A model generated the notes under the pieces. The model did no database searches. It was not told the origin of the DNA and saw only the letters and a list, made by a program, of their open reading frames with translations. From IMG/VR virus record IMGVR_UViG_3300038462_000040, positions 91,853 to 155,852 of that record: a stretch of 64,000 bases of DNA; one strand, given 5' to 3'. The stretch is from a virus. Positions within the stretch are counted from its first letter, which is position 1. Each line of letters starts with the position of its first letter. Both the position numbers and the translations under genes were made by a program. Of this stretch, positions 35,058 to 61,973 are shown in pieces.

Positions 35058-35132
35058 ATGAAAAATTTAATACATATTCAACCCCAACCACAGCAACATC
35101 CACAGATGTCTGAATGGGGAAATTATGCTTAA
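35058..35132 (+). CDS. Leader peptide A (Gln/Pro/His-rich), tRNA-array attenuator
   Basis: 24 codons. Residues 6-16 read H-I-Q-P-Q-P-Q-Q-H-P-Q: ten of eleven are Gln, Pro or His. The next three tRNAs downstream are exactly Pro(TGG), His(GTG) and Gln(TTG). The codons include CAA, CAG, CCC, CCA and CAT. The ORF ends just before the competing hairpin. By analogy with amino-acid-operon attenuators, ribosome stalling at these codons would favour read-through into the tRNAs. The peptide itself probably has no other function. Confidence 0.8.
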   Translation: MKNLIHIQPQPQQHPQMSEWGNYA

Positions 35133-35191
35133 ATTTTTCGAAAGAAGTTTTAGGTTAATGTTGACCCCATTCGTAAGAGTGGGGTTTTTTT
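35112..35191 (+). promoter_or_regulatory. Attenuator A (antiterminator/terminator switch)
   Basis: Segment 1 GAATGGGG (35112-35119, in the leader ORF) is complementary over 8 bp to segment 2 CCCCATTC (35165-35172). Segment 2 also forms the terminator stem ACCCCA/TGGGGT (35164-35169 with 35180-35185), followed by T7. The two pairings exclude each other. Confidence 0.8.
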
Positions 35192-35202
35192 ATTATATAT
35201 AT

Positions 35203-35287
35203 CGGGGTGTAGGTCTGTAGTTGGTAGCAGTCCTGCCTTGGAAGCAGGTGGAGAAATCCCTCGCACGTTCGAACCGTGTCACCCCGA
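35203..35287 (+). tRNA. tRNA-Pro(TGG)
   Basis: Acceptor CGGGGTG/CACCCCG with the Pro-type C1-G72 pair and A73. Anticodon arm CCTGC-CTTGGAA-GCAGG. T-loop TTCGAAC. The variable region is about 14 nt, unusually long for tRNA-Pro. First tRNA of array A. No CCA encoded. Confidence 0.92.
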
Positions 35288-35325
35288 AGTGATTGATGTT
35301 AAATTACTTGCACGTAGTAATCACT
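35288..35325 (+). repeat. Inverted repeat after tRNA-Pro
   Basis: AGTGATT (35288-35294) and AATCACT (35319-35325) can form a hairpin directly after the tRNA, with an inner TTACT/AGTAA extension. It may be a processing or stability element. Confidence 0.5.
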
Positions 35326-35359
35326 GCATAACCAAAAGGTTAACTAAAAATTTAGCAAA

Positions 35360-35369
35360 GTTCTTTGAA
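35360..35369 (+). promoter_or_regulatory. boxA-like element GTTCTTTGAA
   Basis: Resembles the boxA antitermination sequence of rRNA operons. Located 29 bases before tRNA-His. Similar elements precede other RNA genes here. Confidence 0.45.
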
Positions 35370-35397
35370 ATACCTAATAATAATATATAATTTATAT

Positions 35398-35469
35398 GGG
35401 ATGATTGGTGTAGCGGTAGCATGCCAGATTGTGGTTCTGTCGGGGAGGTTTCAAATACCTCATCACCCC
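35398..35469 (+). tRNA. tRNA-His(GTG)
   Basis: G-1 with C73, as in tRNA-His. Anticodon loop TTGTGGT, T-arm GAGGT-TTCAAAT-ACCTC. The acceptor has one A-C mismatch at 3:70. Array A. Confidence 0.88.
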
Positions 35470-35528
35470 CAAATTCTCTAGTGATGTAATTAATATATTG
35501 CTGGTTTGAATATATTGAAACAATAAAT

Positions 35529-35615
35529 TGTTCTGTGATGAAATTGGCTAAACATGTCAGACTTTGACTCTGATGCTCTTTAGTGAGTTTGTAAGTTCGA
35601 ATCTTACCAGAACAG
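35529..35615 (+). tRNA. tRNA-Gln(TTG) with long variable arm
   Basis: Acceptor TGTTCTG/CAGAACA with G73 (U1-A72 and G73 are Gln features). Anticodon arm TCAGA-CTTTGAC-TCTGA. A variable region of about 17 nt is atypical for Gln. Third tRNA of array A. Confidence 0.87.
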
Positions 35616-35664
35616 CAATATTAATTTTTTTAATTATCTTTGTTAAAATTTTAAATTAATTATT

Positions 35665-37136: not shown

Positions 37137-37167
37137 TTTGTATATATTGTAACATTTTATATCTTTG
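37137..37167 (+). promoter_or_regulatory. Promoter of leader B (TTTG-N19-TATCTTTG)
   Basis: Perfect Bacteroidota-type -33/-7 pair with 19-base spacing. The 45 bases 37136-37180 are identical to 55343-55387 upstream of leader D. Confidence 0.85.
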
Positions 37168-37207: not shown

Positions 37208-37300
37208 ATGATGAAAAAAGTACTCGACATATTGGTATCAGAGATGGCAGTTGTCCTATTATGGGCAGATGCAGAAGATACATTATATTCAGTCGGGTAA
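37208..37300 (+). CDS. Leader peptide B (Val/Leu/Asp/Glu/Ala/Trp), tRNA-array attenuator
   Basis: 30 codons, from MMKKVLDILVSEMAVVLLWA to the end A-D-A-E-D-T-L-Y-S-V-G. Val (5), Leu (5), Asp (3), Ala (3), Glu (2), Trp (1) and Met (3) make 22 of 30. The tRNAs that follow are Asp, Glu(TTC), Glu(CTC), Val, Leu(AAG), Leu(TAG), Ala, Leu(TAA), Trp, then Leu, Leu(CAA), Met. Leu codons include CTC, TTG, CTA and TTA, and Glu codons GAG and GAA, matching the isoacceptors. No Pro, His, Gln, Cys, Asn, Phe or Arg is present. Confidence 0.82.
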   Translation: MMKKVLDILVSEMAVVLLWADAEDTLYSVG

Positions 37301-37373
37301 TATTTATTACAAATAACACCTCCTTTCTTAAATGAAAAATCCCGACTGCTAAAATGGTCGGGATTTTTTTTTA
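37290..37373 (+). promoter_or_regulatory. Attenuator B
   Basis: CAGTCGGG (37290-37297, last leader codons) is complementary to CCCGACTG (37341-37348). The latter also forms the 9-bp terminator stem AATCCCGAC/GTCGGGATT (37338-37346 with 37357-37365), followed by a T9-type run. Confidence 0.85.
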
Positions 37374-37427: not shown

Positions 37428-37431
37428 ATTC

Positions 37432-37501
37432 GTTCTCGTAGTATAATGGTTAGTATGTATCACTGTCTATGATAAGGAGGGGTTCGAATCCCACGGGGAC
37501 G
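37432..37501 (+). tRNA. tRNA-Asp(GTC)
   Basis: Acceptor GTTCTCG/CGGGGAC with G73. Anticodon arm TATCA-CTGTCTA-TGATA. The T-stem is imperfect (GGGG TTCGAAT CCCA). First tRNA of array B. Confidence 0.85.
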
Positions 37502-37572
37502 GCAATGATTATTAATGTGTTATAATAATTATCTGTTATATTAAATTATATTAAAAATGAAATAATTAATTT

Positions 37573-37656
37573 GCTGCATTATACAAGTGGTTAAAGTGGC
37601 TTGCCCTTCAAGCAAGTGCCGAAAGGCTTCGCAGGATTCGAATTCCTCATGCAGTA
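37573..37656 (+). tRNA. tRNA-Glu(TTC) with C33 and long variable arm
   Basis: Acceptor GCTGCAT/ATGCAGT. Anticodon arm CTTGC-CCTTCAA-GCAAG places C at position 33. The variable arm TGCC-GAAA-GGC forms a stem, unusual for Glu. Identity could be debated because of C33. Array B. Confidence 0.8.
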
Positions 37657-37683
37657 CTGAAATATAAATTTAAAATTTAAATT

Positions 37684-38073
37684 ATGAAAAATTTGTATAT
37701 TAATGCAACTCACAGTACACCCGCAGTTTTTTTTAATATTAATAAAGGTATTCTTACAATAACAGGAAAATCATTTCCTGAGAATTCCTCAATGTTTTTT
37801 GATGATATTGATAAAGCATTAGATGAATTTATTAAAGAACATTCTAATGTTGATTTAACAATTACTTGTGAATTTGAATATATTAATTCATTATCAAATA
37901 AAGCAGTTTTTAATATATTAGAAAAAGCAGCAAAATCTCTTAATAATGTTATAGTTGTTTGGAAATATGAAGAAAACGATGAAGATATGAAAGAGCAGGG
38001 AGAATTTTTTGAAACATCTTTTAAAACTAAAATTCATTTTCATTATAAACATTTTTTAATACAACCAGAATGA
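37684..38073 (+). CDS. DUF1987 / SiaC-like protein
   Basis: 129 aa. I-N-A-T-H-S-T-P-A-V-F-F-N at the start, G-K-S-F-P-E-N-S-S-M-F-F (about 34-45), F-E-Y-I-N-S-L-S-N-K-A (about 68-78) and V-V-W-K-Y-E-E-N-D-E-D-M-K-E-Q-G (near 95-110) follow the DUF1987 pattern of the SiaC family. SiaC proteins are small phospho-switch partners in bacterial signalling. A phage copy could titrate or mimic a host regulator, which is inference. It lies alone between tRNAs of array B. Confidence 0.75.
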   Translation: MKNLYINATHSTPAVFFNINKGILTITGKSFPENSSMFFDDIDKALDEFIKEHSNVDLTITCEFEYINSLSNKAVFNILEKAAKSLNNVIVVWKYEENDEDMKEQGEFFETSFKTKIHFHYKHFLIQPE

Positions 38074-38078
38074 TAAAT

Positions 38079-38151
38079 GCTCGGTTCGTCTAATGGTTAG
38101 GACAAAAGATTCTCATTCTTTTAAATATGTTTTCGATTAACATACCGAGTA
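38079..38151 (+). tRNA. tRNA-Glu(CTC)
   Basis: Acceptor GCTCGGT/ACCGAGT, anticodon arm AAAGA-TTCTCAT-TCTTT, T-arm ATGTT-TTCGATT-AACAT. Array B; starts 5 bases after the SiaC-like stop. Confidence 0.9.
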
Positions 38152-38229
38152 CAGAAATAAATATGATGTTGGAAATACTAACATTATCATATAAAATTTG
38201 ATTTAATGCTGGCTTTTATCAACAAATAT

Positions 38230-38304
38230 ATTCCCTTAACTCAGATGGGTCAGAGTGTTTGCCTTACAAGCAAAATGTCGTAGGTTCGAAGCCTACAGGG
38301 AATA
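38230..38304 (+). tRNA. tRNA-Val(TAC)
   Basis: Acceptor ATTCCCT/AGGGAAT with A73, anticodon arm TTTGC-CTTACAA-GCAAA, T-arm GTAGG-TTCGAAG-CCTAC. Array B. Confidence 0.92.
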
Positions 38305-38389
38305 CAAAAGATTGTAGTGCCAAATACAATCATAATATCGCCTTAATTACCGATATTTAATATTTATCGGTTAAAAAGGTGATACCTTT

Positions 38390-38477
38390 CTCTCAGTGTT
38401 GTAACTGGTAGCCAAGCTGGTTTAAGAAACCAGTGCGAAATAATAGTAGCGTGTCGGTTCGAGTCCGACTTGAGAGA
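38390..38477 (+). tRNA. tRNA-Leu(AAG)
   Basis: Acceptor CTCTCAG/TTGAGAG, anticodon arm CTGGT-TTAAGAA-ACCAG, long type II variable arm, T-arm GTCGG-TTCGAGT-CCGAC. AAG (read as I34) is rare among bacterial Leu tRNAs. Array B. Confidence 0.9.
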
Positions 38478-38485
38478 CAATAAAC

Positions 38486-38560
38486 GTGAATGTAGCCAAA
38501 TGGTTAATAGGCAATCGATTTAGACTCGAAAATTTGCTGGTTCGACTCCAGTCATTCACA
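38486..38560 (+). tRNA. tRNA-Leu(TAG), short variable loop
   Basis: Acceptor GTGAATG/CATTCAC, anticodon loop TTTAGAC on a 4-bp stem TCGA/TCGA, T-arm GCTGG-TTCGACT-CCAGT. The variable loop is short, unusual for Leu. Array B. Confidence 0.85.
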
Positions 38561-38604
38561 CAAAGATATTTTTTAAAAAACAATAATCTTTCCTAATATT
38601 TCAT

Positions 38605-38613
38605 GTATTTATA
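38605..38613 (+). promoter_or_regulatory. GTATTTATA promoter-like motif
   Basis: Plus-strand copy 13 bases before the HNH gene ATG at 38627. Confidence 0.6.
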
Positions 38614-38626
38614 TTAAATATAATAT

Positions 38627-39355
38627 ATGAAATATACAAAAGAATTTTTAGAACCAATTGTTCTTAAAAGCAAAGCAATTAGTGAAGTATTACGTTATTT
38701 AAAATTAAATGCTAATGGTGGTAATCATGCACATATTTCAAAAACCATAAAAAAATATAATATTGATACATCACATTTTCTTGGACAAAGTTGGAATAGA
38801 GGTAAATCGCCACGAAATAGACATACCATAGAAAGTTTCATTAAACTTGTTTTAAAATTAAATGGTATGGGATGGCAAAGTCATCAAATAAAATTAAAAT
38901 TATTTGAATTAAATTTAAAAGAAAGAAAATGTGGAATTTGTGGACAAAATGAAATATGGAATAATAATAAACTTGGTTTAGAGTTAGACCATATTAATGG
39001 AATACACAATGATAATAGATTAGAAAATTTAAGAATTTTATGTCCAAATTGTCATTCACAAATGCCAACACAAGGTGTTAGAAATATTCATAATGGAAAA
39101 ATAATTAACATTAAAGTTCATAAAGAAAAAATAATAAAAAATAAAATAATTAATATTTGTAATTGTGGTAAAAAAATAAAAAATAATTCTAAAACATGTG
39201 TTAATTGCTATTCATTAAAACAAAGAAAAGTTAATAGACCATCATTTGAAACACTTCAAGAAGAAGTTAAAACATTAGGATATACTGGAACTGGAAGAAA
39301 ATATGGTGTGAGTGATAATACGATAAGAAAATGGATTAAATTTTACACGAAATAA
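38627..39355 (+). CDS. HNH homing endonuclease in tRNA array B
   Basis: 242 aa. The HNH core is C-G-I-C-G-Q-N-E ... L-E-L-D-H-I-N-G-I-H-N-D-N-R-L-E-N-L-R, then L-C-P-N-C-H-S-Q (about residues 104-150). A second zinc cluster C-N-C-G-K...C-V-N-C follows. The C-terminus G-Y-T-G-T-G-R-K-Y-G-V-S-D-N-T-I-R-K-W-I is a helix-turn-helix. The product of 60281-60946 is a close paralogue. The gene is inserted between tRNA-Leu and tRNA-Ala with its own promoter-like box. Confidence 0.85.
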   Translation: MKYTKEFLEPIVLKSKAISEVLRYLKLNANGGNHAHISKTIKKYNIDTSHFLGQSWNRGKSPRNRHTIESFIKLVLKLNGMGWQSHQIKLKLFELNLKERKCGICGQNEIWNNNKLGLELDHINGIHNDNRLENLRILCPNCHSQMPTQGVRNIHNGKIINIKVHKEKIIKNKIINICNCGKKIKNNSKTCVNCYSLKQRKVNRPSFETLQEEVKTLGYTGTGRKYGVSDNTIRKWIKFYTK

Positions 39356-39358
39356 AAT

Positions 39359-39434
39359 GGGGTATGGGACTGCTAGGGTTGGTCATCTCGTCTGCACCGA
39401 GAAAATCAGGAGGATTCGAATTCCTCATGCTCCA
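39359..39434 (+). tRNA. tRNA-Ala(TGC) with C33
   Basis: Acceptor GGGGTAT/ATGCTCC includes the Ala identity pair G3-U70; A73. Anticodon arm CTCG-TCTGCAC-CGAG has C33. Starts 4 bases after the HNH stop. Array B. Confidence 0.88.
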
Positions 39435-39473
39435 CATTATCAAATAGTTATATAGATAATCACAATAAAATAT

Positions 39474-39547
39474 GGCACAGTACTCCAATTGGTAGAGAGA
39501 AACGGCTTAAACCCGTTAAAGTGTGAATTCGAATTTCACTTGTGCTA
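39474..39547 (+). tRNA. tRNA-Leu(TAA), short variable loop
   Basis: Acceptor GGCACAG/TTGTGCT, anticodon arm AACGG-CTTAAAC-CCGTT, T-arm GTGAA-TTCGAAT-TTCAC. Short variable loop. Array B. Confidence 0.87.
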
Positions 39548-39569
39548 CAAAATAAATTAATTATAATAT

Positions 39570-39641
39570 ACGTCTGTCGTCTAATGGTTAAGATAACGGC
39601 TTCCAACCCCGTGGATGAGGTTTCGATTACTTCCAGACGTG
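39570..39641 (+). tRNA. tRNA-Trp(CCA)
   Basis: Acceptor ACGTCTG/CAGACGT with G73 (bacterial Trp features). Anticodon loop TTCCAAC on stem ACGG/CCGT with a C31-C39 mismatch. T-arm GAGGT-TTCGATT-ACTTC. Array B. Confidence 0.87.
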
Positions 39642-39707
39642 CTAAAATAAAAAATAAATATTATATTATTTGCATATATTTATATAATAAACTAAATTTG
39701 TCAAATT

Positions 39708-40436
39708 ATGTTAATAATAAATTACAATAAAAAAGATTATTACGATGGTGTTGTTGGTACGATGGGTATCGATAAAACACTTGTTTATGACCGTAAAATA
39801 ATTGAGGTTGAAGAAAAAAAAATTCCATCAATATTTCAAAGAAAGGGATTTTCTTGGAAAAAAAGTAAAGATTCACCTTTTTTAAATATTGAAAATCATA
39901 CAATAAAAAATGAACAACATAAAAATTATCAAAATTGTAGTTCTTTTATTATTGGATTTTGTGGAAAACTATATATTGGTTGGAAATTATATAGCGAAAA
40001 CAGAAAAGTTTATCCAGAAAAACTTACAACTACAATTACATATGATTTTGATTTAATAAAAACAATTATTGATAATAAAGGTTGGTATGGAAACCTTGAA
40101 GAGCAGTATAATTATATTAAAAATTATAATTCACTTCAATTATTTAGAGATTTTAAAGCACCTGTTTTTATTTATGATAGTGATTATAATAGAATAAATA
40201 TTGGTCATTATCATAAACGTAATGAAAAACTTTTTATTAATCCAATTTTAAGCGATTATCATTTTTATAAAATATTTGATAGTTTTCAAGCATTTCAAGA
40301 AATAAGTATGTTTATGGGTGGTGTGCTTGGTAAAGGCGAAAAAGAAATTATTGAAGTGGCTGATAAATATAAAATTACTCAACATGGTTTTGATTATAAA
40401 TGGAGTTTTAGAAAAAAATCTGAAAAGAATAAATGA
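39708..40436 (+). CDS. Conserved-looking phage hypothetical protein
   Basis: 242 aa. N-terminal K-D-Y-Y-D-G-V-V-G-T-M-G-I-D-K-T-L-V-Y-D-R (about 9-29) is a distinctive pattern I associate with phage hypothetical proteins, but no function is known to me. No signal peptide or membrane span. Its stop overlaps the next start by 4 bases, forming a small operon with two further genes upstream of the tmRNA. Confidence 0.7.
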   Translation: MLIINYNKKDYYDGVVGTMGIDKTLVYDRKIIEVEEKKIPSIFQRKGFSWKKSKDSPFLNIENHTIKNEQHKNYQNCSSFIIGFCGKLYIGWKLYSENRKVYPEKLTTTITYDFDLIKTIIDNKGWYGNLEEQYNYIKNYNSLQLFRDFKAPVFIYDSDYNRINIGHYHKRNEKLFINPILSDYHFYKIFDSFQAFQEISMFMGGVLGKGEKEIIEVADKYKITQHGFDYKWSFRKKSEKNK

Positions 40437-40699
40437 AACAAGAATTGCATAAAATATTTATAATTCCTGCTCGATTTATTAAACAAACTAAAGATAATAA
40501 ATATGTTATTCGATGTCTAATTGAAAAAAATATTACTGAAGACCGTATATTTGATGATAATTCACTTAAAGGATTAATAAATCCTAAGTATTTATTAATC
40601 GGAATAATGACAGGAGTTGGATATATGCAAATAAATTTTGTTGATGCTAATGATTATGAAAAAATGTTTAATGTAAAATGGAAAATTTTAGTAAAATAA
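40433..40699 (+). CDS. Hypothetical protein
   Basis: 88 aa, beta-rich, basic. Overlaps the genes on both sides (4 and 22 bases), so it is translationally coupled in the 39708-40872 operon. Not recognised. Confidence 0.6.
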   Translation: MKQELHKIFIIPARFIKQTKDNKYVIRCLIEKNITEDRIFDDNSLKGLINPKYLLIGIMTGVGYMQINFVDANDYEKMFNVKWKILVK

Positions 40700-40872
40700 G
40701 CGATGAAATAATATCACAACTTAAATCTATATGTTATAGTGGTGATTTATCTGATATTGGTAATGAAATTGGTATTGTAATTGCTAAATATTTTGATAAA
40801 GATAATACTGTTGATGATTTCATTCATGGTTTAAAACATGGAATATCATTAACTGATGGAACACATGGTTAA
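40678..40872 (+). CDS. Small acidic hypothetical protein
   Basis: 64 aa, helical and acidic, starting M-E-N-F-S-K-I-S-D-E-I-I. Overlaps the preceding gene by 22 bases and ends 23 bases before the tmRNA. Not recognised. Confidence 0.6.
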   Translation: MENFSKISDEIISQLKSICYSGDLSDIGNEIGIVIAKYFDKDNTVDDFIHGLKHGISLTDGTHG

Positions 40873-40880
40873 TATAATAA

Positions 40881-40890
40881 GTTCTTTAAA
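40881..40890 (+). promoter_or_regulatory. boxA-like element GTTCTTTAAA before tmRNA
   Basis: Matches the boxA core CTTTAA and lies 5 bases from the tmRNA 5' end. Confidence 0.45.
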
Positions 40891-40895
40891 ATAAT

Positions 40896-41258
40896 GGGGA
40901 TGAATGGATTTGACTGTATGTAGAAAAATGATGTAAGCAAGTAGTAGTTGAATCGGACTACTTTTAAAAAGGTTCAAAACAATAAATGCAGAAGACATTA
41001 TGTCTATTCCTACTTCCTTGACAAAAGGAAATAGCGTATTTGTAAAGAGTGCTGAACTTGCAATTGCGTAATAGGAAAAAAATAAACAGCAAAAAACTTC
41101 CAAGTCAGAAGGGAAGTAAAAACAATTCTGGACAGTTTTGTAGTTGTTCTGGAAAAATACAATTAACATTTTGCTGATTTAGGAAAATCAAATAAACTTG
41201 TAGAAAACTTATTAATCACATTGCAACACCGGGGAATCGATGCCCCGCATCTCCACCA
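40896..41258 (+). ncRNA. ssrA: tmRNA
   Basis: The 5' end GGGGATGAATGGATTTGAC and the 3' end CATCTCC-A-CCA form the tRNA-like acceptor with the G3-U70 alanine pair; CCA is encoded. A tag frame starts at GCA (40988, nt 93 of the RNA, near the usual resume position) and reads A-E-D-I-M ... S-A-E-L-A-I-A before TAA at 41069-41071. That is 27 codons, longer than typical tags, and the end is AIA instead of LAA. The resume codon is inferred, not proven. It would rescue stalled ribosomes during infection. Confidence 0.9.
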
Positions 41259-55799: not shown

Positions 55800-55874
55800 G
55801 TACGTGTGGTCGAGTGGTCAATGGCAACGGTCTGCAAAACCGTAAAATCGCTGGTTCAAATCCAGCCACGTACT
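55800..55874 (+). tRNA. tRNA-Cys(GCA)
   Basis: Acceptor GTACGTG/CACGTAC with U73, anticodon arm ACGGT-CTGCAAA-ACCGT, T-arm GCTGG-TTCAAAT-CCAGC. Array D. Confidence 0.94.
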
Positions 55875-55881
55875 CAATATT

Positions 55882-55954
55882 GGACTGTAAGCTGACATGG
55901 TGTAGCGGTTGTCTGTTAAACAAAGGGTCGTGGGTTCAAATCCCTCACAGTCCG
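55882..55954 (+). tRNA. tRNA-Asn(GTT)
   Basis: Acceptor GGACTGT/ACAGTCC with G73, anticodon arm TTGT-CTGTTAA-ACAA, T-arm GTGGG-TTCAAAT-CCCTC. Array D. Confidence 0.92.
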
Positions 55955-55993
55955 CAAAAGTATACTATATATCTTATTTTTTGTATATCTTAA

Positions 55994-56002
55994 GTATTTA
56001 TA
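55994..56002 (+). promoter_or_regulatory. GTATTTATA promoter-like motif
   Basis: Plus-strand copy 17 bases before the endonuclease ATG at 56020. Confidence 0.6.
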
Positions 56003-56019
56003 AACAAATTATAAATATT

Positions 56020-56430
56020 ATGAGAGGTAGAAAAATTAAAAAAATATGCAAAAATTGTAATAATGAATTTGAAGTACTTATGATTAAAGTAAGACAAAAT
56101 AAAGGAATTTTTTGTAGTACTAATTGTTATCACGAATTTTTAAGAAAAAATAGTAATGGATATATTTTTGATACTAAATTAGCAAATGTTTTTTATCAAA
56201 AAAAATCTAAATATGGTCTAACTAAAGAAGAATATTTAAAATTATTTGCAAACCAAAATAATAAATGTGCAATATGTGAAATATCATTTGATAAAGTTAG
56301 AGCATGTGTTGACCATTCGCATAAAAATGGTGTAGTTAGAGGATTATTATGCGATAAATGTAATAAAGGTCTCGGTTCATTTAACGACAACATTCCGTTG
56401 CTCAAAAAAGCAATTGAATATTTAAAATAA
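56020..56430 (+). CDS. Endonuclease VII-like HNH protein in tRNA array D
   Basis: 136 aa from the ATG at 56020; a longer frame starts inside tRNA-Asn and was rejected. An N-terminal C-K-N-C...F-C-S-T-N-C ribbon (about 10-35) precedes C-A-I-C...C-V-D-H-S-H-K-N-G-V-V-R-G-L-L-C-D-K-C-N-K-G-L-G-S-F. This is the recombination endonuclease VII (T4 gp49-like) core, often found in phage homing endonucleases. Inserted between tRNA-Asn and tRNA-Ile, so homing is the likelier role. Confidence 0.82.
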   Translation: MRGRKIKKICKNCNNEFEVLMIKVRQNKGIFCSTNCYHEFLRKNSNGYIFDTKLANVFYQKKSKYGLTKEEYLKLFANQNNKCAICEISFDKVRACVDHSHKNGVVRGLLCDKCNKGLGSFNDNIPLLKKAIEYLK

Positions 56431-56431
56431 T

Positions 56432-56504
56432 TGGAATATAACACAGTGGTTAGTGTGCTTTCCTGATAAGAAAGAGGTCGGTGGTTCAAATCCACCTATT
56501 CCAA
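56432..56504 (+). tRNA. tRNA-Ile(GAT)
   Basis: Acceptor TGGAATA/TATTCCA, anticodon arm CTTTC-CTGATAA-GAAAG, T-arm GGTGG-TTCAAAT-CCACC. Starts 1 base after the endonuclease stop. Array D. Confidence 0.93.
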
Positions 56505-56514
56505 CTAAATTTCT

Positions 56515-56603
56515 GGAGAAATGGATGAGTGGATTAAATCAGTAACCTGCTAAGTTACCGTGCGGGGAAACCCGCACCGAGAGTTCGAATCTCTCTTTCT
56601 CCG
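56515..56603 (+). tRNA. tRNA-Ser(GCT)
   Basis: Acceptor GGAGAAA/TTTCTCC with G73, anticodon arm GTAAC-CTGCTAA-GTTAC, long variable arm, T-arm GAGAG-TTCGAAT-CTCTC. Array D. Confidence 0.95.
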
Positions 56604-56645
56604 CTTTTATTTATAATATTAATAATAATGTTTAAATATTTTTAT

Positions 56646-56730
56646 GGTAGAATGGCAGAGTGGTCTATTGCACTTGTCCTGAAAACAAGCGAGGGTAATT
56701 CCTCCGTGGGTCCAAATCCTACTTCTACCG
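56646..56730 (+). tRNA. tRNA-Ser(TGA) with C33
   Basis: Acceptor GGTAGAA/TTCTACC with G73, anticodon arm CTTGT-CCTGAAA-ACAAG (C33), type II variable arm. Array D. Confidence 0.9.
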
Positions 56731-56734
56731 CACT

Positions 56735-56760
56735 ATGAACTGTATTGCAATTCAGTTCAT
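56735..56760 (+). repeat. Inverted repeat after tRNA-Ser
   Basis: ATGAACTG/CAGTTCAT, 8-bp perfect stem with a 10-base loop and no U-run; possibly a 3'-end processing signal. The 56731-56979 gap between tRNAs has no ORF. Confidence 0.55.
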
Positions 56761-56848
56761 AACTCACATAATACTATAAACAATTATGTTTTGCAGAATA
56801 TGATTGATGTAAAATGTGTGAATTCCAGTTGCATAAGAAGCTGTTTCT

Positions 56849-56977
56849 AATGTTCAGTGAAATGTTGTATTGTATTCGTGGTTGGCAACATGAAATTTAA
56901 GAAAATGTTTTGTGAGACATTCATATGCTTGTAATAGTATAGGAAAAACGTAAGTAAAAGGCTTACACTGGAACATT
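56849..56977 (+). ncRNA. Candidate structured RNA in tRNA array D
   Basis: AATGTTCAGTG (56849-56859) pairs with CACTGGAACATT (56966-56977) to close a 129-nt element with an 11-bp stem and one bulged G. Inside is a smaller hairpin GTAAGT-AAA-AGGCTTAC. The element ends 2 bases before tRNA-Phe. Type unknown. Confidence 0.45.
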
Positions 56978-56979
56978 AT

Positions 56980-57054
56980 GGAGATGTAGCTGAGTTGGTA
57001 TAGCGGTGGTTTGAAGCACCACGACAATCACTGGTTCGATTCCAGTCTTCTCCA
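56980..57054 (+). tRNA. tRNA-Phe(GAA)
   Basis: Acceptor GGAGATG/CTTCTCC (one T-T mismatch), A73, anticodon arm GTGGT-TTGAAGC-ACCAC, T-arm ACTGG-TTCGATT-CCAGT. Array D. Confidence 0.93.
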
Positions 57055-57064
57055 CAATATAATT

Positions 57065-57136
57065 GCGAAATAGGTGTTGATGGTTGCACAGGAGTCTTCC
57101 AAACTTCGGGAGTAGGTTCGAATCCTATATTTCGCT
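57065..57136 (+). tRNA. tRNA-Gly(TCC)
   Basis: Acceptor GCGAAAT/ATTTCGC with U73, anticodon arm GGAGT-CTTCCAA-ACTTC, T-arm GTAGG-TTCGAAT-CCTAT. Array D. Confidence 0.93.
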
Positions 57137-57143
57137 CCAAAAT

Positions 57144-57216
57144 TGACCCGTATCTTAATTGGTAGAGAAATTATCTCATAAGTAATAGGTTGAAGGTTCG
57201 AATCCTTCCGGGTCAA
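57144..57216 (+). tRNA. tRNA-Met(CAT)
   Basis: Acceptor TGACCCG/CGGGTCA, anticodon arm ATTAT-CTCATAA-GTAAT, T-arm GAAGG-TTCGAAT-CCTTC. Elongator Met or Ile2. Array D. Confidence 0.9.
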
Positions 57217-57273
57217 CGAAATAAAAACATTTTTAATTACAAATAATTTTATTATATTTGTAAAAAATATTTT

Positions 57274-57498
57274 ATGAAAAATAAAAAAGAAAAACTTATA
57301 ATTGATTTAGAAAATTTTAATGATAAAAACATTAAATTAATAAAAAAAATAAAAAATTCTAATTTTACAAATAATCACAAATATAAACAATGTTATTTCG
57401 AATCTAATAAAATTATTGGAAATACAACAAATTGTTGTTTACCTTGCGATATTTATTGTTTCAATAGAATAAAAAATAATGCATCATTAGCTCAGTGA
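57274..57498 (+). CDS. Small Cys-containing protein overlapping a tRNA
   Basis: 74 aa, basic. A C-terminal half with C-Y-F...C-C-L-P-C-D-I-Y-C-F resembles a small metal- or disulphide-linked motif. The last 18 bases, including the stop, lie inside tRNA-Asn (57481), so the mRNA 3' end and tRNA 5' end cannot both be intact from one transcript. Not recognised. Confidence 0.55.
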   Translation: MKNKKEKLIIDLENFNDKNIKLIKKIKNSNFTNNHKYKQCYFESNKIIGNTTNCCLPCDIYCFNRIKNNASLAQ

Positions 57499-57552
57499 TA
57501 GAGCGTCACGCCGTTAACGTGGGGGTCGGTGGTTTGAATCCATCATGGTGCG
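57481..57552 (+). tRNA. tRNA-Asn(GTT) with C33
   Basis: Acceptor GCATCAT/ATGGTGC with G73, anticodon arm CACG-CCGTTAA-CGTG (C33), T-arm GGTGG-TTTGAAT-CCATC. Second Asn tRNA; the first (55882) has normal U33. Array D. Confidence 0.88.
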
Positions 57553-57623
57553 CTAATTTAAATTAAATATGTATTGTAATTCTAAAAATTTTAACTAAAT
57601 TTGAAATCTAATAATTTTTAAAC

Positions 57624-57854
57624 ATGAATATAATTAATATTTTAAAGAAAATCTGGAAATCATTTTCCAATTATTTTATGGCATATATTATAATAATTGC
57701 AGTTATTGTTGGTTTAATAGTAAATGATTTTGCGGTTGGATTTTATACTTTTTTTGGAGAAGGAATTGTAATTTCAGTATTTATTGGTTTAAGACAATTG
57801 TATTGGTACATAACAAAAACTGGTGATTATGAAAATAAAAATACTAAAAAATAA
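57624..57854 (+). CDS. Small two-span membrane protein
   Basis: 76 aa. Two hydrophobic segments (about 18-36, Y-I-I-I-I-A-V-I-V-G-L-I-V, and about 42-58) with basic ends. Size and topology would fit a holin-like or accessory membrane protein, without further support. Overlaps the next gene start by 26 bases. Confidence 0.55.
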   Translation: MNIINILKKIWKSFSNYFMAYIIIIAVIVGLIVNDFAVGFYTFFGEGIVISVFIGLRQLYWYITKTGDYENKNTKK

Positions 57855-58344
57855 ACATTATCCTTTTCCATATTTTTTTTTAGCATTACCTGTTTGGACT
57901 GGTAAGTTTAAAGAAATTGAAAAAAATTTTATGTTTACTGAATCATGTCTTTATGATTTACAAAATAATGACCAATTTGATGTAAATAAATTATTTGGAT
58001 TTAGTATTGGTTTGCATCATAATATATCATTTAGATTTGGTTGGAGAGCATTACCAAATGAAAAAAAAATTGAAATTCTTACAGATGAATATCATGATGG
58101 TATAAGACAAGAACAAAAATCAATAGGTAAAATAAACATTGATGTGTGGTATAAATTTCAATTAATTTATTATTGGGATAATGTTAACGAAAAAACAATA
58201 TATTATTTATATAACCCATATGAAAGCTATGGTATAACAAACAATTTTAGTATTAAAAAGAAAAGTGGTTTAGGATATACATTAGGACTGTACTTTGGTG
58301 GTAATAAAAAAGCACCTCATGATATTATAATTTATAAAAAATAA
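57829..58344 (+). CDS. Hypothetical protein
   Basis: 171 aa from the ATG at 57829, preferred to a GTG two codons upstream. Beta-rich, aromatic-rich, no recognised domain. Coupled to the membrane protein upstream by overlap and followed after 5 bases by a secreted-type protein gene, so the three may form an envelope-related operon. Confidence 0.6.
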   Translation: MKIKILKNKHYPFPYFFLALPVWTGKFKEIEKNFMFTESCLYDLQNNDQFDVNKLFGFSIGLHHNISFRFGWRALPNEKKIEILTDEYHDGIRQEQKSIGKINIDVWYKFQLIYYWDNVNEKTIYYLYNPYESYGITNNFSIKKKSGLGYTLGLYFGGNKKAPHDIIIYKK

Positions 58345-58349
58345 TTATT

Positions 58350-58658
58350 ATGAAAGCCAAATTTTTATTATTTTTTCTTATTTTTACCTTTAACTGTTCT
58401 ATTTCAAAAAATATTGATGTTTTTAATACAGTAAAAAAGGAATATGCAGGTACAGTAAGTTCTTCATTTTTTATTAAAATACCTTTTAATAATTATACAT
58501 TAATTGAAACAGAAATAAGTTCAATACCAATTAGAGGTAAAATTGAAATAAAAGTGGGAACTAAATGTTATTATTATTATATTATAGATAAAAAAACTGG
58601 AAAAGAAATATTAATGGTAATTTGGGAACATGCCAAAAAAGGTTATGTTGTAATGTAA
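58350..58658 (+). CDS. Small secreted protein / possible lipoprotein
   Basis: 102 aa. N-terminus M-K-A-K-F-L-L-F-F-L-I-F-T-F-N-C-S-I-S-K is a signal peptide with a Cys at position 16 where a lipoprotein Cys would be, though the residues before it are a weak lipobox. The mature part is beta-rich. Ends 6 bases before tRNA-Thr. Confidence 0.6.
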   Translation: MKAKFLLFFLIFTFNCSISKNIDVFNTVKKEYAGTVSSSFFIKIPFNNYTLIETEISSIPIRGKIEIKVGTKCYYYYIIDKKTGKEILMVIWEHAKKGYVVM

Positions 58659-58664
58659 ATAGAT

Positions 58665-58748
58665 GCCTTCTTCGTATAGTGGTCGATTACACCGGATTTG
58701 TAACCCGGTTCTTAACAAGACACGTTGGTTCGAATCCAACAGAAGGCT
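58665..58748 (+). tRNA. tRNA-Thr(TGT) with long variable arm
   Basis: Acceptor GCCTTCT/AGAAGGC with U73, anticodon loop TTTGTAA on stem CCGG/CCGG, T-arm GTTGG-TTCGAAT-CCAAC. A variable region of about 15 nt is unusual for Thr. Array D. Confidence 0.88.
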
Positions 58749-58780
58749 CTAAATGATTGTAACGCAATAAGTTATAAATT

Positions 58781-58853
58781 GCCCCTATAGTATAATGGAT
58801 AAGTGCATAGGTCCTCTAAACCTACAGTCGTGGTTCGATTCCACGTAGGGGTA
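58781..58853 (+). tRNA. tRNA-Arg(TCT) with C33
   Basis: Acceptor GCCCCTA/TAGGGGT, anticodon arm TAGGT-CCTCTAA-ACCTA (C33), T-arm CGTGG-TTCGATT-CCACG. Array D. Confidence 0.9.
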
Positions 58854-58943
58854 CAAAATTTAATTATTTTATAACGCATAATTAATAAATTTTAATTAAT
58901 ATTGTAAAATAATTTATATACATTTAAATAATAACATAAAAAA

Positions 58944-59480
58944 ATGAAGAATTTAAGAATACCTTGTAATTTTTTTGAAACAAAAGGAATTGGTCAAAGT
59001 AATGATTCAGATTATCCATCAAGCTATCATTTAGCATTAATGGATTGTGGTATAGAAACAATGAATATTATGACATATTCATCAATTTTACCTGCAGAAG
59101 CTAGTTTAATTGAAATTCCAGATAAAAGTTGGTTTAATGATAATTTTGGAAGTGTTATGGAAAGTATAATGGCTGTTCATCATGGAACTAGAAGTCAATT
59201 AGTTAGTGCTGGTTTATGCTATAATTGGTTATATGATTCAGAAAACAAAAAAATTGGTGGATTGGTAGTTGAAAGACATGGAAATTTTAGTAAGGAAGCA
59301 ACAGAAGAAAGATTATATCAATCAATTTATGAATTAAAAAATAAATCATTTAGTCATTTTAATTGGAATGAAGATGAATTTAAAATATTAGTTTCATCTT
59401 TTGAAATTGATGAACAATATGGTACTGCAATGGCAGCATTATGTTTTACAAATTATTTTATTAGAGATGAAATAAATTAA
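58944..59480 (+). CDS. Pyruvoyl-dependent arginine decarboxylase
   Basis: 178 aa. K-G-I-G-Q-S-N near residue 14, Y-H-L-A-L-M-D-C-G-I-E-T-M-N, and T-Y-S-S-I-L-P-A-E-A (about 44-53) are the family hallmarks. Self-cleavage at the S-S pair creates the pyruvoyl group. H-H-G-T-R-S and a late D-E-Q-Y-G-T-A complete the fold. The enzyme makes agmatine, a polyamine precursor. Full length for the family. Placed among tRNA genes, its likely phage use is polyamine supply for DNA packaging or translation, which is inference. Confidence 0.85.
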   Translation: MKNLRIPCNFFETKGIGQSNDSDYPSSYHLALMDCGIETMNIMTYSSILPAEASLIEIPDKSWFNDNFGSVMESIMAVHHGTRSQLVSAGLCYNWLYDSENKKIGGLVVERHGNFSKEATEERLYQSIYELKNKSFSHFNWNEDEFKILVSSFEIDEQYGTAMAALCFTNYFIRDEIN

Positions 59481-59484
59481 AAAT

Positions 59485-59631
59485 ATGAATACAGTAATTT
59501 GTCCAAAATGTAAAAATGTTATTATTGTATCAAAAGATAAAGATTTTGTTATTTGTTGTGGTGAAGTAATTTATGAAATAAATAATGCACCTGTAGTTCA
59601 ATTGGATTCGAGCATCACTTTCCTAAAGTGA
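59485..59631 (+). CDS. 48-aa zinc-ribbon-like peptide overlapping tRNA-Arg
   Basis: Starts M-N-T-V-I-C-P-K-C-K and has a second pair I-C-C-G, giving a C-x2-C...C-C zinc-ribbon pattern in the first 27 residues. The C-terminal 15 codons run into tRNA-Arg(CCT). Either the peptide is real and the transcript is cut by tRNA processing, or only the ribbon part matters. Confidence 0.45.
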   Translation: MNTVICPKCKNVIIVSKDKDFVICCGEVIYEINNAPVVQLDSSITFLK

Positions 59632-59661
59632 TTGTTATGAGTTCGAATCTCATCAGGTGTA
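59587..59661 (+). tRNA. tRNA-Arg(CCT)
   Basis: Acceptor GCACCTG/CAGGTGT, anticodon arm TCACT-TTCCTAA-AGTGA, T-arm ATGAG-TTCGAAT-CTCAT. Array D. Confidence 0.92.
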
Positions 59662-59673
59662 CTAAAATAGTAT

Positions 59674-59862
59674 ATGAATAAAGAAAAAAAAGTTATATGT
59701 GTATTATGTGGTAGAGAATGGTTACCTAGAATAAAAAACTTATGTGAATGTGGTGGTTTTTGTACTTGGGGATATGAACCAAATAAACCAGAAAGTTTTA
59801 TTGTTGATGAAAATGGTATTTGGTATTTAAAACCAGTACCTGATAATATAAAAAACATATAG
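59674..59862 (+). CDS. Small zinc-ribbon protein
   Basis: 62 aa. C-V-L-C-G-R-E-W-L...C-E-C-G-G-F-C forms a compact zinc ribbon (about residues 9-31), followed by a short beta tail. Starts 12 bases after tRNA-Arg and is followed 2 bases later by the next gene. Function unknown. Confidence 0.6.
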   Translation: MNKEKKVICVLCGREWLPRIKNLCECGGFCTWGYEPNKPESFIVDENGIWYLKPVPDNIKNI

Positions 59863-59864
59863 TT

Positions 59865-60077
59865 ATGGATTTTTCAAAAATGACGATAGAACTTTATCAA
59901 TCAATTTTGAATGCTCGTACAATAATTAATGAAAGTAAAAAGGGTCTTGCATTATTATTGTTGGAAATTGAAAATATTCAAAATAATATAGAGAAAAAAA
60001 AATTAAAAAAAGAAGTTATTGATTTAATTAAAAATTTTAGTGAACGTGATGAAAATTTAAAACAATTTGAATTTTAA
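59865..60077 (+). CDS. Small helical hypothetical protein
   Basis: 70 aa, one long amphipathic helix pair rich in Lys/Glu/Ile (about 20-60), likely coiled coil. Ends 3 bases before tRNA-Arg(TCG). Not recognised. Confidence 0.55.
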   Translation: MDFSKMTIELYQSILNARTIINESKKGLALLLLEIENIQNNIEKKKLKKEVIDLIKNFSERDENLKQFEF

Positions 60078-60080
60078 TTC

Positions 60081-60152
60081 ACCTCTGTAGTTCAACGGAT
60101 AGAACGGAAGTCCTCGAAACTTAGAATACGGGTTCAAATCCTGTCAGGGGTA
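60081..60152 (+). tRNA. tRNA-Arg(TCG) with C33
   Basis: Acceptor ACCTCTG/CAGGGGT, anticodon stem AAGT/ACTT with loop CCTCGAA (C33), T-arm ACGGG-TTCAAAT-CCTGT. Array D. Confidence 0.88.
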
Positions 60153-60164
60153 CTAAATCAATAT

Positions 60165-60240
60165 ACGTCTGTATCACGCTACGCTACGAACGTAGAGAAG
60201 TGTAATTGGAATCATGAGAGTTCGAATCTCTTCAGACGTA
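60165..60240 (+). tRNA. tRNA-Arg(ACG), D-arm-less form
   Basis: Acceptor ACGTCTG/CAGACGT, anticodon arm CTACG-CTACGAA-CGTAG, T-arm GAGAG-TTCGAAT-CTCTT. Only about 7 nt separate acceptor and anticodon stem, so no normal D-arm fits. About 20 nt, including a D-loop-like TGTAATTGG, lie in the variable region instead. Possibly degenerate or rearranged. Array D. Confidence 0.65.
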
Positions 60241-60280
60241 CTTTTTTACGTTTCGAACGTATTTATTTTAAAAGTTCGAT

Positions 60281-60946
60281 ATGATAAAATATGAAGAAAA
60301 TAAATTACGTAAAATTGTAAATGAATGTTCATTATATAGAGAAGTATTATTAAAATTTGAAAGAAATGATTCAGGTGCTGCATATAAAACACTACATAGA
60401 AGAATAAAAGAATGGAAAATAGATACATCGCATTTTTTAAGTCAAAGTGAAATAATGAAGAATAAAATAAGCAATGGCTTATATCCAAAAAAAACTAATA
60501 ATGAATTGTTTTCCATTAATAACATTACAAGGCATGTAATAAAACGTAGAATAATTGAAGAAAATTTAATTGAATATAAATGTATTTTTTGTGGTCAAAA
60601 TGAATGGTGGTATGGTAAAAAAATATCCTTAATTTTAGACCACATTAATGGAATACATAATGATAATAGATTAGAAAATTTAAGATTTTTATGTCCAAAT
60701 TGTAATGCTACATTAGAAACGCATTGTAAAGGTAGTAAAGGTTTAATACCAAAAATAAAAAAAGAACGAAAATATTCGCCTCATATTAATCAAAGAAAAG
60801 TTAAAGAAAGACCGTCATATGAACAACTTCAACGAGAAATTAAAAAATTAGGTTATGTTGGAACTGGAAAAAAATATGACGTAAGTGATAATGCAATAAG
60901 AAGATGGATAAAATTATACGAAAAAATTAAAATAAACCAAATTTAA
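60281..60946 (+). CDS. HNH homing endonuclease (paralogue)
   Basis: 221 aa. C-I-F-C-G-Q-N-E-W-W ... L-I-L-D-H-I-N-G-I-H-N-D-N-R-L-E-N-L-R, then F-L-C-P-N-C-N-A (about 101-145). The C-terminal G-Y-V-G-T-G-K-K-Y-D-V-S-D-N-A-I-R-R-W-I is a helix-turn-helix. The HNH core and HTH are nearly the same as in the protein at 38627-39355, but the middle zinc cluster is missing. Sits at the end of a tRNA run. Confidence 0.85.
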   Translation: MIKYEENKLRKIVNECSLYREVLLKFERNDSGAAYKTLHRRIKEWKIDTSHFLSQSEIMKNKISNGLYPKKTNNELFSINNITRHVIKRRIIEENLIEYKCIFCGQNEWWYGKKISLILDHINGIHNDNRLENLRFLCPNCNATLETHCKGSKGLIPKIKKERKYSPHINQRKVKERPSYEQLQREIKKLGYVGTGKKYDVSDNAIRRWIKLYEKIKINQI

Positions 60947-60949
60947 AAT

Positions 60950-61606
60950 ATGAACACAAATATTATTCTAACTCCTCAATTAACATCAATGTTAGATATT
61001 TTAAGAACAATTGATTTTGCAATTAAGCATATTGAAGAAAATAAACTTTTTGTTAATATTCATTTATTTGAATCACAAGAATTATTTGTAGAATCTCTTT
61101 TACAATTTAATTTAACTAATGATGGTATTGGTGTTGCTGTAGGTAAAACTTTTTTAAACGGAGATAGAATTCATATTTATTTAAATTTAAATGCTTTTCC
61201 ATTTAAATTTATAATATTTCATGAAATAGGACATGCTTTTTTACTTACTCATTATCCCAATAAACAACCTGATAAATCATTACATCAACAAATTAGAATT
61301 ATTGGAGAAGAATTGTTTTGTGATTTATATGCTTTAAAATTATTAAACGATAAAAATATTAGTAAAGAAATTATGAATAATCATTGTAATAATTATTATG
61401 ATTATTTAAAAGATAATTTATCACCATTTAAAATAAATGGGTCATTGTTAAGAATATGTAATATTGCTAATTATTTTCCAGAACTTAATAATGAATTGAG
61501 TACTATGAATCAAACAAATAATATTTATTGTTTACTAAATGAAAAAAATTTAAATTTCAATAAATTAGATGAAGCAATTATAAAATTTTTTGACTATAAA
61601 ATTTAA
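60950..61606 (+). CDS. Zinc metallopeptidase-like protein (HExxH)
   Basis: 218 aa. I-I-F-H-E-I-G-H-A-F-L-L-T-H (His about 97-101) is a zinc-binding H-E-x-x-H motif, and the downstream G-E-E-L-F-C-D-L-Y-A-L gives the third ligand (Glu or Asp) as in ImmA/IrrE-type or gluzincin peptidases. Starts 3 bases after the HNH gene. Such phage proteins may cleave a host repressor or toxin, but no target is suggested by context. Confidence 0.72.
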   Translation: MNTNIILTPQLTSMLDILRTIDFAIKHIEENKLFVNIHLFESQELFVESLLQFNLTNDGIGVAVGKTFLNGDRIHIYLNLNAFPFKFIIFHEIGHAFLLTHYPNKQPDKSLHQQIRIIGEELFCDLYALKLLNDKNISKEIMNNHCNNYYDYLKDNLSPFKINGSLLRICNIANYFPELNNELSTMNQTNNIYCLLNEKNLNFNKLDEAIIKFFDYKI

Positions 61607-61663
61607 TGTGATATGAAAACTGTACGTATTAATTCTCCGTAGTTTAGGCAATTAGCTTGAATT

Positions 61664-61870
61664 ATGGTTATGGAAAATTCCAATTTTAGTCCGAAACAAC
61701 CAGCTAAATACTGGTTGGTAGAGTTCACCCTTACGAGTGGTGAAGTACTACAGTTTTATGTTAAAACAAAAACTCAATTTGATGCTTATGAAAAAGCAGA
61801 TAGTTATAAGTATTTTGCAAATAACAAAAAATTATTTGATTTATTAAAAACATTTAGGCTTATGCCTTAA
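61664..61870 (+). CDS. Small hypothetical protein
   Basis: 68 aa, beta then alpha: Y-W-L-V-E-F-T-L-T-S-G-E-V-L-Q-F-Y-V followed by a helix. ATG at 61664 or 61670. Followed by a perfect hairpin (61878-61896) without U-run and then tRNA-Gly. Not recognised. Confidence 0.6.
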   Translation: MVMENSNFSPKQPAKYWLVEFTLTSGEVLQFYVKTKTQFDAYEKADSYKYFANNKKLFDLLKTFRLMP

Positions 61871-61877
61871 TGTAAAA

Positions 61878-61896
61878 TGCAGGGTAATGCCCTGCA
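61878..61896 (+). repeat. Perfect hairpin before tRNA-Gly
   Basis: TGCAGGG-TAATG-CCCTGCA, 7-bp stem without U-run, 4 bases before the tRNA; probably an mRNA 3' or processing structure. Confidence 0.6.
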
Positions 61897-61900
61897 ACAT

Positions 61901-61973
61901 GCGAGATTAGCTCAGTTGGTAGAGCGTCTGTTTACCAAACAGAAAGTCGTGAGTCCGAACCCCATATCTCGCT
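61901..61973 (+). tRNA. tRNA-Gly(ACC)
   Basis: Acceptor GCGAGAT/ATCTCGC with U73, anticodon arm TCTGT-TTACCAA-ACAGA, T-loop TCCGAAC with one T-stem mismatch. A34 in Gly is unusual in bacteria. Last tRNA of array D. Confidence 0.88.

Follow-up and report, generated by a model that had tools for sequence, protein, structure and literature searches.

The tRNA (transfer RNA) genes of the phage represented by IMG/VR virus record IMGVR_UViG_3300038462_000040 lie in four arrays, each directly preceded by a small leader cassette that encodes the same amino acids its array of tRNAs would carry, and this arrangement makes it very probable that the arrays are controlled by ribosome-mediated transcription attenuation, with each leader sensing a shortage of the tRNAs it governs. 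The window analyzed here is the final 64 kb (64,000 nucleotides) of this 155,852-base record; its G+C content is 27%, and the four blocks of tRNA genes all stand on the plus strand between 35 and 62 kb. In each cassette, a promoter-like site is followed by a short leader open reading frame (ORF), and an 8-nucleotide stretch inside this ORF (segment 1) is complementary to the 5' arm of the cassette's own terminator (Table 1). An earlier note made from the letters of this DNA had described the four cassettes, with ORFs of 24 to 42 codons, and the tRNAs behind them; the former were recovered by a structure-only scan and the latter by ARAGORN and Infernal.

The scan required a U-run hairpin, a second copy of the hairpin's 3' arm no more than 230 nucleotides upstream, and an ATG-initiated ORF of 14-75 codons reaching that copy, on either strand and without the use of amino-acid composition. 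Across both strands of the window it returned exactly four terminators, each before one of the four tRNA arrays. Promoters were sought with the strict Bacteroidota-type pattern (TTTG, 17-21 nucleotides, TAnnTTTG), and four of the seven plus-strand sites in the window are the leader promoters, the remaining three lying at 39669, 52838, and 58011. Leaders B and D have promoters that agree at every position of a 45-base stretch (37136-37180 and 55343-55387), and a 23-base part of this stretch is also present in sister contigs and two relatives. Default ARAGORN called 30 tRNA genes in the window; both Infernal and relaxed ARAGORN added Met (43390) and Asn (55882), while Glu-TTC (37573) and Ala-TGC (39359) have relaxed ARAGORN as their sole basis and are not listed by Infernal at its gathering score.

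The composition of each leader tracks its own array, as the earlier note had proposed. Residues matching the array make up 10 of 23 in leader A (Pro, His, Gln), 21 of 29 in leader B (Asp, Glu, Val, Leu, Ala, Trp, Met), 9 of 29 in leader C (Lys, Tyr), and 37 of 41 in leader D (Thr, Ser, Ile, Asn, Phe, Arg, Gly, Met, Cys), or 2 to 9 amino acids putatively sensed per leader. The total of 77 matches among 122 residues was reached in none of 200,000 shuffles of the amino-acid labels (mean 35.0, standard deviation 7.4, maximum 67), and when leaders and arrays were re-paired, a check that the note had suggested, the native pairing ranked best of 24 (77; next 62). Under a wobble rule in which A34 is taken as inosine, 32 of the 34 array tRNAs have a cognate codon upstream of segment 1 in their own leader, the exceptions being Arg-CCT and Arg-TCG, both in array D. 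The codons of leaders B and D are also rarer than those of the window's genes, with only 0.0002 and 0.0004 of simulations as low; the corresponding fractions for leaders A and C are 0.046 and 0.11. The Leu codons of leader B (CTC, TTG, CTA, TTA, TTA) can be matched one-to-one with the Leu anticodons of its array (AAG, CAA, TAG, TAA, TAA), and CTC and CTA account for just 17 and 32 of the 991 Leu codons in the genes counted.

We infer from this anatomy a mechanism in which RNA polymerase would initiate at the leader promoter with a ribosome trailing through the leader ORF. With ample supplies of every tRNA in the group, the ribosome would reach or pass segment 1 and block its pairing, so that segment 2, the 5' arm of the terminator, would pair with segment 3 and transcription would stop before the tRNAs. 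Shortage of any one tRNA in the group would stall the ribosome on a matching codon upstream; segment 1 would then pair with the emerging segment 2, the terminator would not form, and the array would be transcribed, the new tRNAs then lifting the stall in a closed feedback loop. A leader serving a group would act as an OR-gate over several tRNAs, and for an untranslated leader the model predicts read-through. The signal is more likely to be tRNA loss, through host shut-off or anticodon nucleases, than amino-acid starvation, because the product is tRNA and extra tRNA cannot cure starvation. The RNA ligase gene of the T4 Rnl1 type that lies between arrays B and C is in keeping with exposure of the phage to tRNA cutting.

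Relatives were collected from viral contigs with the RNA ligase (11 loci), a VWA-protein (7), and a 688-amino-acid protein (45) as queries, and alignment queries added 36 and 14 loci, the sets overlapping. A 349 kb contig holds all three marker proteins at 100% identity, and relatives whose marker proteins are 57-77% identical retain the leader before the array. The 79 array starts counted are those with 700 nucleotides upstream, after removal of repeats (identical last 150 nucleotides), and exclude L012-L022 (pattern matches, mostly on the same contigs) and 12 distant ligase loci (L089 and L091-L101). The scan detected a leader of the right family at 67 of the 79 (A 27/28, B 17/22, C 16/18, D 7/11), and on reading, a leader was found at nine of the other 12. 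Seven of these nine have both a leader and a terminator hairpin (L005, L008, L035, L084, L085, L105, L104), although the L084 frame is without an ATG, and at L082 and L106 only the leader ORF was seen; L007, L083, and L088 are Leu-TAA genes following the transfer-messenger RNA (tmRNA) within array B and hence not array starts. Relatives with arrays behind leaders that fail to track them, which the earlier note had held would count against attenuation, were looked for in this set, and this refuting outcome was not observed. A profile search of genome contigs with an alignment of the 688-amino-acid protein yielded no relative, and tblastn of this protein against phages gave no match. One distant ligase relative with a Met-Met-Glu-Leu cluster (L093) has neither a cassette nor a matching ORF, and a supposed loss of His paired with an altered A leader in G004 was ruled out, the His tRNA being present.

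The distinct cassettes detected also number 79 (A 30, B 19, C 19, D 11), an equality with the number of array starts that is coincidental, and each ORF was counted from its most distant ATG. Family B leaders drift in residue order and keep a constant make-up, every one of the 19 having a single Trp, one or more Glu, and two or more Ala, and one C leader (L085) is reshuffled to MKKGNTYYKKYYYKHYVCK. G011, the one record that lacks a Glu tRNA in its array, also shows no Ala tRNA there, and its leader-like frame, itself without an ATG, contains no Glu codon and one Ala. Codon differences within family A fall mostly at the third position (1204 versus 584 and 592), and its single-base codon differences are 571 synonymous to 161 nonsynonymous among 23 distinct strings, counts that are pairwise and hence not independent; this is the pattern of a translated ORF. 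The synonymous bias therefore suggests that the leaders are translated, clearly in family A and weakly in family C.

The position of the matching codons fits the model as well, since a stall could free segment 1 only from upstream. Matching residues before versus after segment 1 number 249/560 versus 2/179 in family A, 375/489 versus 30/99 in family B, 161/370 versus 28/210 in family C, and 308/352 versus 70/97 in family D. When the terminator arm and loop of each cassette were swapped for those of relatives, segment 1 paired better with its own in family B (-15.7 versus -14.4, P 0.006) and family D (-16.5 versus -12.5, P 0.00005), with P values that are too small owing to relatedness. A false match to the family B pattern, L195, was excluded from this test (P 0.00035 with it, 0.006 without).

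The same layout occurs with other amino-acid groups in a pair of metagenomic phages, in Caulobacter and Brevundimonas phages, in Salicola SCTP-2, and in Cellulophaga phi38:1; Bacillus phage G and Agrobacterium Atu_ph07 are probable further cases. Together with the leaders kept by relatives, these matches between leaders and differently grouped arrays support the attenuation reading of the earlier note. The metagenomic pair, G006 and G007 (G+C 53% and 56%), was reached via a 34% identical RNA ligase and carries the groups Val-Ala-Cys-Asp-Gly-Glu, Tyr-Leu, and Pro-Met-Phe, with Ile-Thr-Gln additionally in G006; the leaders match their own, differently composed groups. The scan detected just the first G006 cassette, and on reading, the first two groups show clear complementary segments. 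In CcrColossus, the leader MMTYRNNVRQIRVRQFN runs directly into TTGGCGGGCC, the complement of the terminator arm, before an array of Tyr, Phe, Val, Ile, Ile, Val, Gln, Gln, Asn, and Arg, and a rho-independent terminator separating the leader from the tRNAs is annotated in GenBank. With this leader as query, tblastn found 12 records, four from Caulobacter phages (two phages, each twice) and eight from Brevundimonas phages. The five loci read all keep the leader, the terminator, and the complementary segment within the ORF; the complementarity is exact over at least 8 nucleotides in four and has one mismatch in CcrPW, and the scan flagged CcrColossus alone. In the Bajun locus, segment 1 and its partner, segment 2, have changed in concert (CGGACGGGCC with GGCCCGTCTG).

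SCTP-2 has four scan-found cassettes before the arrays Asp-His-Met-Ile-Met, Lys-Phe-Trp-Val-Ser-Gly, Ser-Glu-Thr, and Leu-Pro-Leu-Tyr-Gln, the last with the leader NQYQLQQLPLVLYPY. The first SCTP-2 leader (L204 6521-6670) is rich in Asn, for which no tRNA was found in its array (alone P 0.10), and this is either a missed tRNA or a mismatch. The scan found one cassette in phi38:1. In phage G, the leader gp86, rich in Cys-Ser-Trp-Phe-Glu-Asp-Thr-Tyr, is followed by a terminator and an array of Cys, Asp, Phe, Tyr, Glu, Thr, Ser, and Trp. The Atu_ph07 scan hit, with leader TNPMQPTTEIIAIERNVFVRAEAAMFWYPI, includes all 11 amino acids of the first 15 tRNAs, plus Thr and Asn; its match has P 0.38 for the full leader, 0.044 before segment 1, and 0.0036 with the first 15 of the 17 tRNAs. 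Label shuffles at the level of lineages, for which some amino-acid sets and segment cuts were chosen after the data had been seen, gave P 5e-6 for the window, 1.5e-5 for G006, 1e-5 for SCTP-2, 0.002 for phi38:1, and 0.003 for phage G. The phi38:1 value rests on the first nine tRNAs, one of them (Ala) called by eye, and becomes 0.067 with the whole ARAGORN array. For CcrColossus, P is 0.063 over the whole leader and 1.3e-4 before segment 1; default ARAGORN missed its Tyr and Phe tRNAs, and without both the full leader has P 0.023. The Phe gene passes the Infernal cut-off and reads GAA at the relaxed threshold, and the Tyr gene was called by eye and is annotated in Bajun and Kikimora.

The named phages form a hand-picked, non-random panel, some being covered by part of their tRNA regions. 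Among the 18 with arrays of at least three tRNAs, a leader was found in three (CcrColossus, SCTP-2, phi38:1) and a probable one in two (phage G, Atu_ph07). The scan of 29 stretches from 19 named phages returned 11 terminators with leader-like ORFs, seven of them no more than 500 nucleotides before tRNAs; S-CRM01, phiCbK, and phiN3 gave matches that did not lie within 500 nucleotides before a tRNA. PTm1 and BONAISHI gave no tRNA match, and phiN3 no cluster of three tRNAs. Four candidates were rejected: the ORFs of Karimac (P 0.0015) and XacN1 (P 0.024) sit within other genes and have no terminator, no hairpin with a U-run was found between the RaK2 ORF (P 0.013) and its tRNAs, and in Pectobacterium phage CBB the small ORFs before a hairpin do not match in composition (P 0.11, 0.63).

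Several observations weigh against the attenuation model. Leader C has the weakest match of the four, and family C shows little coding bias, with 97 synonymous to 95 nonsynonymous differences and positional counts of 200, 193, and 268. The stop codon of leader C ends 27 nucleotides beyond segment 1, too far for a ribosome held at the stop to cover that segment. The upstream-downstream contrast is small in family D, and segment 1 itself dictates some of the later codons. The earlier note had proposed a search for covarying segments in relatives, and the covariation seen in families B and D did not extend to A and C, where the swap test was flat (P 0.62 and 0.20); the test is uninformative in these two because their segments hardly differ. 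Folds starting at segment 1 still contain the terminator in all four cassettes, which implies that antitermination must be kinetic, the antiterminator forming first. The control could be bypassed from promoter-like sites within array B (39669) and array D (58011). Beyond the window, G011 has a Cys tRNA and a D leader without Cys, a poor fit; two of the four G006 leaders, those for Pro-Met-Phe and Ile-Thr-Gln, have a weak or unclear segment 1; and phage G has no clear segment 1. No leader was found in 13 of the 18 named array phages (Karimac, BillNye, XacN1, KVP40, CBB, crAss001, phiCbK, T5, RaK2, S-CRM01, A511, FelixO1, LP65), and there are leaderless arrays even in positive phages, namely the second of phage G and the first of CcrColossus.

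In a rival reading, codons would be monitored by another route, with a stalled ribosome shielding the transcript from Rho or RNase, or governing processing, rather than acting on intrinsic termination. The poor U tract of the Pro-Met-Phe cassette in G006 and G007 and the lack of a clear segment 1 in the Ile-Thr-Gln cassette of G006 lean this way, but the hairpin, U-run, and complementary segment 1 found together in the window and, by the scan, at 67 of the 79 array starts counted in relatives make such a route improbable. It is slightly harder still to credit that the small ORFs encode functional peptides whose amino-acid bias is unrelated to tRNA control. The ORF carries a protein annotation in Kabachok and phage G, and family A appears conserved at the protein level; yet the bias fits the adjoining array in several phage groups, the matching residues mostly end at segment 1, and residue order drifts in family B and is reshuffled in L085. 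Segment 1 resembles the 3' arm of the terminator and could be a by-product of ordinary terminators, which by themselves would reduce read-through and, as partial terminators, set array dosage while the translated leaders sense nothing; this is very unlikely, as it leaves unexplained both the codon-array matches and their position before segment 1. Chance plus selection by eye can practically be dismissed: small ORFs are common, and panel ORFs without a terminator reached P 0.0015 to 0.024 (Karimac, RaK2, XacN1), but no label permutation in 200,000 equaled the observed match and the scan was blind to composition.

Attenuators of the trp, his, phe, and ilv type in bacterial amino-acid operons consist of a leader ORF with regulatory codons, a terminator, and an antiterminator that uses the terminator 5' arm. 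The phage cassettes share the leader ORF with clustered codons, the intrinsic terminator, and the alternative pairing over the terminator 5' arm. They differ in being phage-borne, in that each leader would sense several amino acids, and in their target: the bacterial systems control biosynthetic enzymes that supply the sensed amino acid, a usual trait of those examples rather than of the mechanism, whereas the genes behind the phage leaders are tRNAs for the sensed codons themselves. No protector or pause hairpin, which would enforce termination behind an untranslated leader, was obvious in folds of the four cassettes begun near segment 1. As judged from their sequence, the cassettes would work like an attenuator with a new target, tRNA genes. 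T-box riboswitches likewise respond to the state of tRNA and choose between terminator and antiterminator; they bind uncharged tRNA directly and do not need translation. An Rfam scan of the window at gathering score matched solely tRNA and tmRNA, with no T-box specifier or core match.

The reason why phages carry tRNAs is debated (PMC10264068), and two papers discuss phage tRNAs as an escape from tRNA-cutting defenses (PMC10264068, PMC11555353), a purpose, the replacement of depleted host tRNA, that the proposed control would share. A reported host target, tRNA-Tyr (PMC11555353), is among the tRNAs of array C. A genome-wide search for 5' premature terminators in bacteria (PMC2965389) resembles the present work in its search for 5' terminators. 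In the text available from each source, a word search found neither "attenuat" nor "leader peptide" in PMC10264068, PMC11555353, or PMC13015707 (a 2026 preprint on phage tRNA numbers), and neither "attenuat" nor "leader" in PMC3556154 (phiCbK/CcrColossus genomes) or PMC7162821 (huge phages). The earlier note knew of no description of such control, and among the matches listed from the open-licence literature we likewise found none of leader-peptide or attenuation control of phage tRNA genes, huge and jumbo phages included.

The arrays hold further features of their own. Coding genes are interspersed in array B, as is a tmRNA not mentioned in the earlier note; it lies between Trp and Leu-TAA both in the window and in the relatives G002, G009, G010, and G012. 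A permuted tmRNA (RF04321) is found in the G006 record too (L119 7576-7803), and that record's Val-Ala-Cys-Asp-Gly-Glu array encloses a class A RNase P RNA (RF00010, 189 bits; L118 11419-11717). The tRNA-Leu at 38390-38478 reads the anticodon AAG, with A at position 34, in a phage of 27% G+C. The tRNA-like stretch of array C (48869-49019) has a 7-bp acceptor (GGGTAGT/ACTACCC), was missed by ARAGORN even at the relaxed threshold, and is perhaps an intron-bearing or decayed tRNA; in array D, 60165-60240 is an Infernal tRNA match of 34.5 bits without an assignable anticodon. tRNAs with a CTA anticodon ("Pyl" by ARAGORN) in the tRNA regions of G002, G003, G006, and XacN1 are candidate amber suppressors. 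Between arrays A and B lies an HNH/NUMOD homing-endonuclease-like region (35665-36618) that shares one ORF with a cREC_REC domain, and a gene with a Mom-family domain (44072-44935) directly precedes the RNA ligase gene.

Table 1. Leader cassettes, tRNA arrays, and associated features, in window positions
Feature	Position	Strand	Basis
Promoter-like site of leader A, TTTG-19-TATATTTG	34990..35020	+	pattern scan
Leader A ORF, 24 amino acids, MKNLIHIQPQPQQHPQMSEWGNYA	35058..35132	+	structure-only scan
Segment 1 of A, GAATGGGG, complementary to terminator 5' arm	35112..35119	+	structure-only scan
Terminator A	35163..35186	+	scan; fold -13.7 kcal/mol, z -5.1
tRNA array A: Pro-TGG, His-GTG, Gln-TTG	35202..35616	+	ARAGORN/Infernal
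Promoter-like site of leader B	37137..37167	+	pattern scan
Leader B ORF, 30 amino acids, MMKKVLDILVSEMAVVLLWADAEDTLYSVG	37208..37300	+	structure-only scan
Segment 1 of B, CAGTCGGG	37290..37297	+	structure-only scan
Terminator B	37339..37364	+	scan; fold -15.4 kcal/mol, z -5.4
tRNA array B: Asp, Glu, Glu, Val, Leu, Leu, Ala, Leu, Trp, tmRNA, Leu, Leu, Met	37431..43460	+	
tmRNA within array B	40896..41258	+	Rfam RF00023
T4 Rnl1-type RNA ligase, between arrays B and C	44937..46028	+	Pfam PF09511, E 5.7e-21
Promoter-like site of leader C	48476..48507	+	pattern scan
Leader C ORF, 30 amino acids, MFTFGTYYYGKKSYKKQLMRIGNAVFKIQC	48544..48636	+	structure-only scan
Segment 1 of C, GAATCGGG	48602..48609	+	structure-only scan
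Terminator C	48661..48686	+	scan; fold -12.1 kcal/mol, z -3.9
tRNA array C: Lys-TTT, Tyr-GTA, tRNA-like stretch without assignment, Lys-CTT	48701..49099	+	
Terminator closing array C	49102..49127	+	
Promoter-like site of leader D	55344..55374	+	pattern scan
Leader D ORF, 42 amino acids, MMKTLTTNIFSSISTTTSRIGRTIFCSNFIGRNSNVSGILFS	55413..55541	+	structure-only scan
Segment 1 of D, GTGTCGGG	55518..55525	+	structure-only scan
Terminator D	55568..55595	+	scan; fold -14.5 kcal/mol, z -4.8
tRNA array D: Thr, Thr, Cys, Asn, Ile, Ser, Ser, Phe, Gly, Met, Asn, Thr, Arg, Arg, Arg, one unassigned (60165-60240), Gly	55618..61974	+	ARAGORN/Infernal

If the leaders work as their anatomy suggests, tRNA arrays of this kind would be made on demand at a specific tRNA shortage and would not be a constant supplement. 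We lean toward the broader view that multi-codon attenuators are widespread and partly convergent in large phages and amount to inducible tRNA replacement, in which the loss of any one tRNA, for example to a host anticodon nuclease, would induce the whole set. Were the leaders to act as proposed, codon compensation and escape from tRNA-cutting defenses could be tested against each other directly in cultured phages such as CcrColossus, SCTP-2, and phi38:1, and attenuation would be extended to genes whose product lifts the stall by which they are induced.

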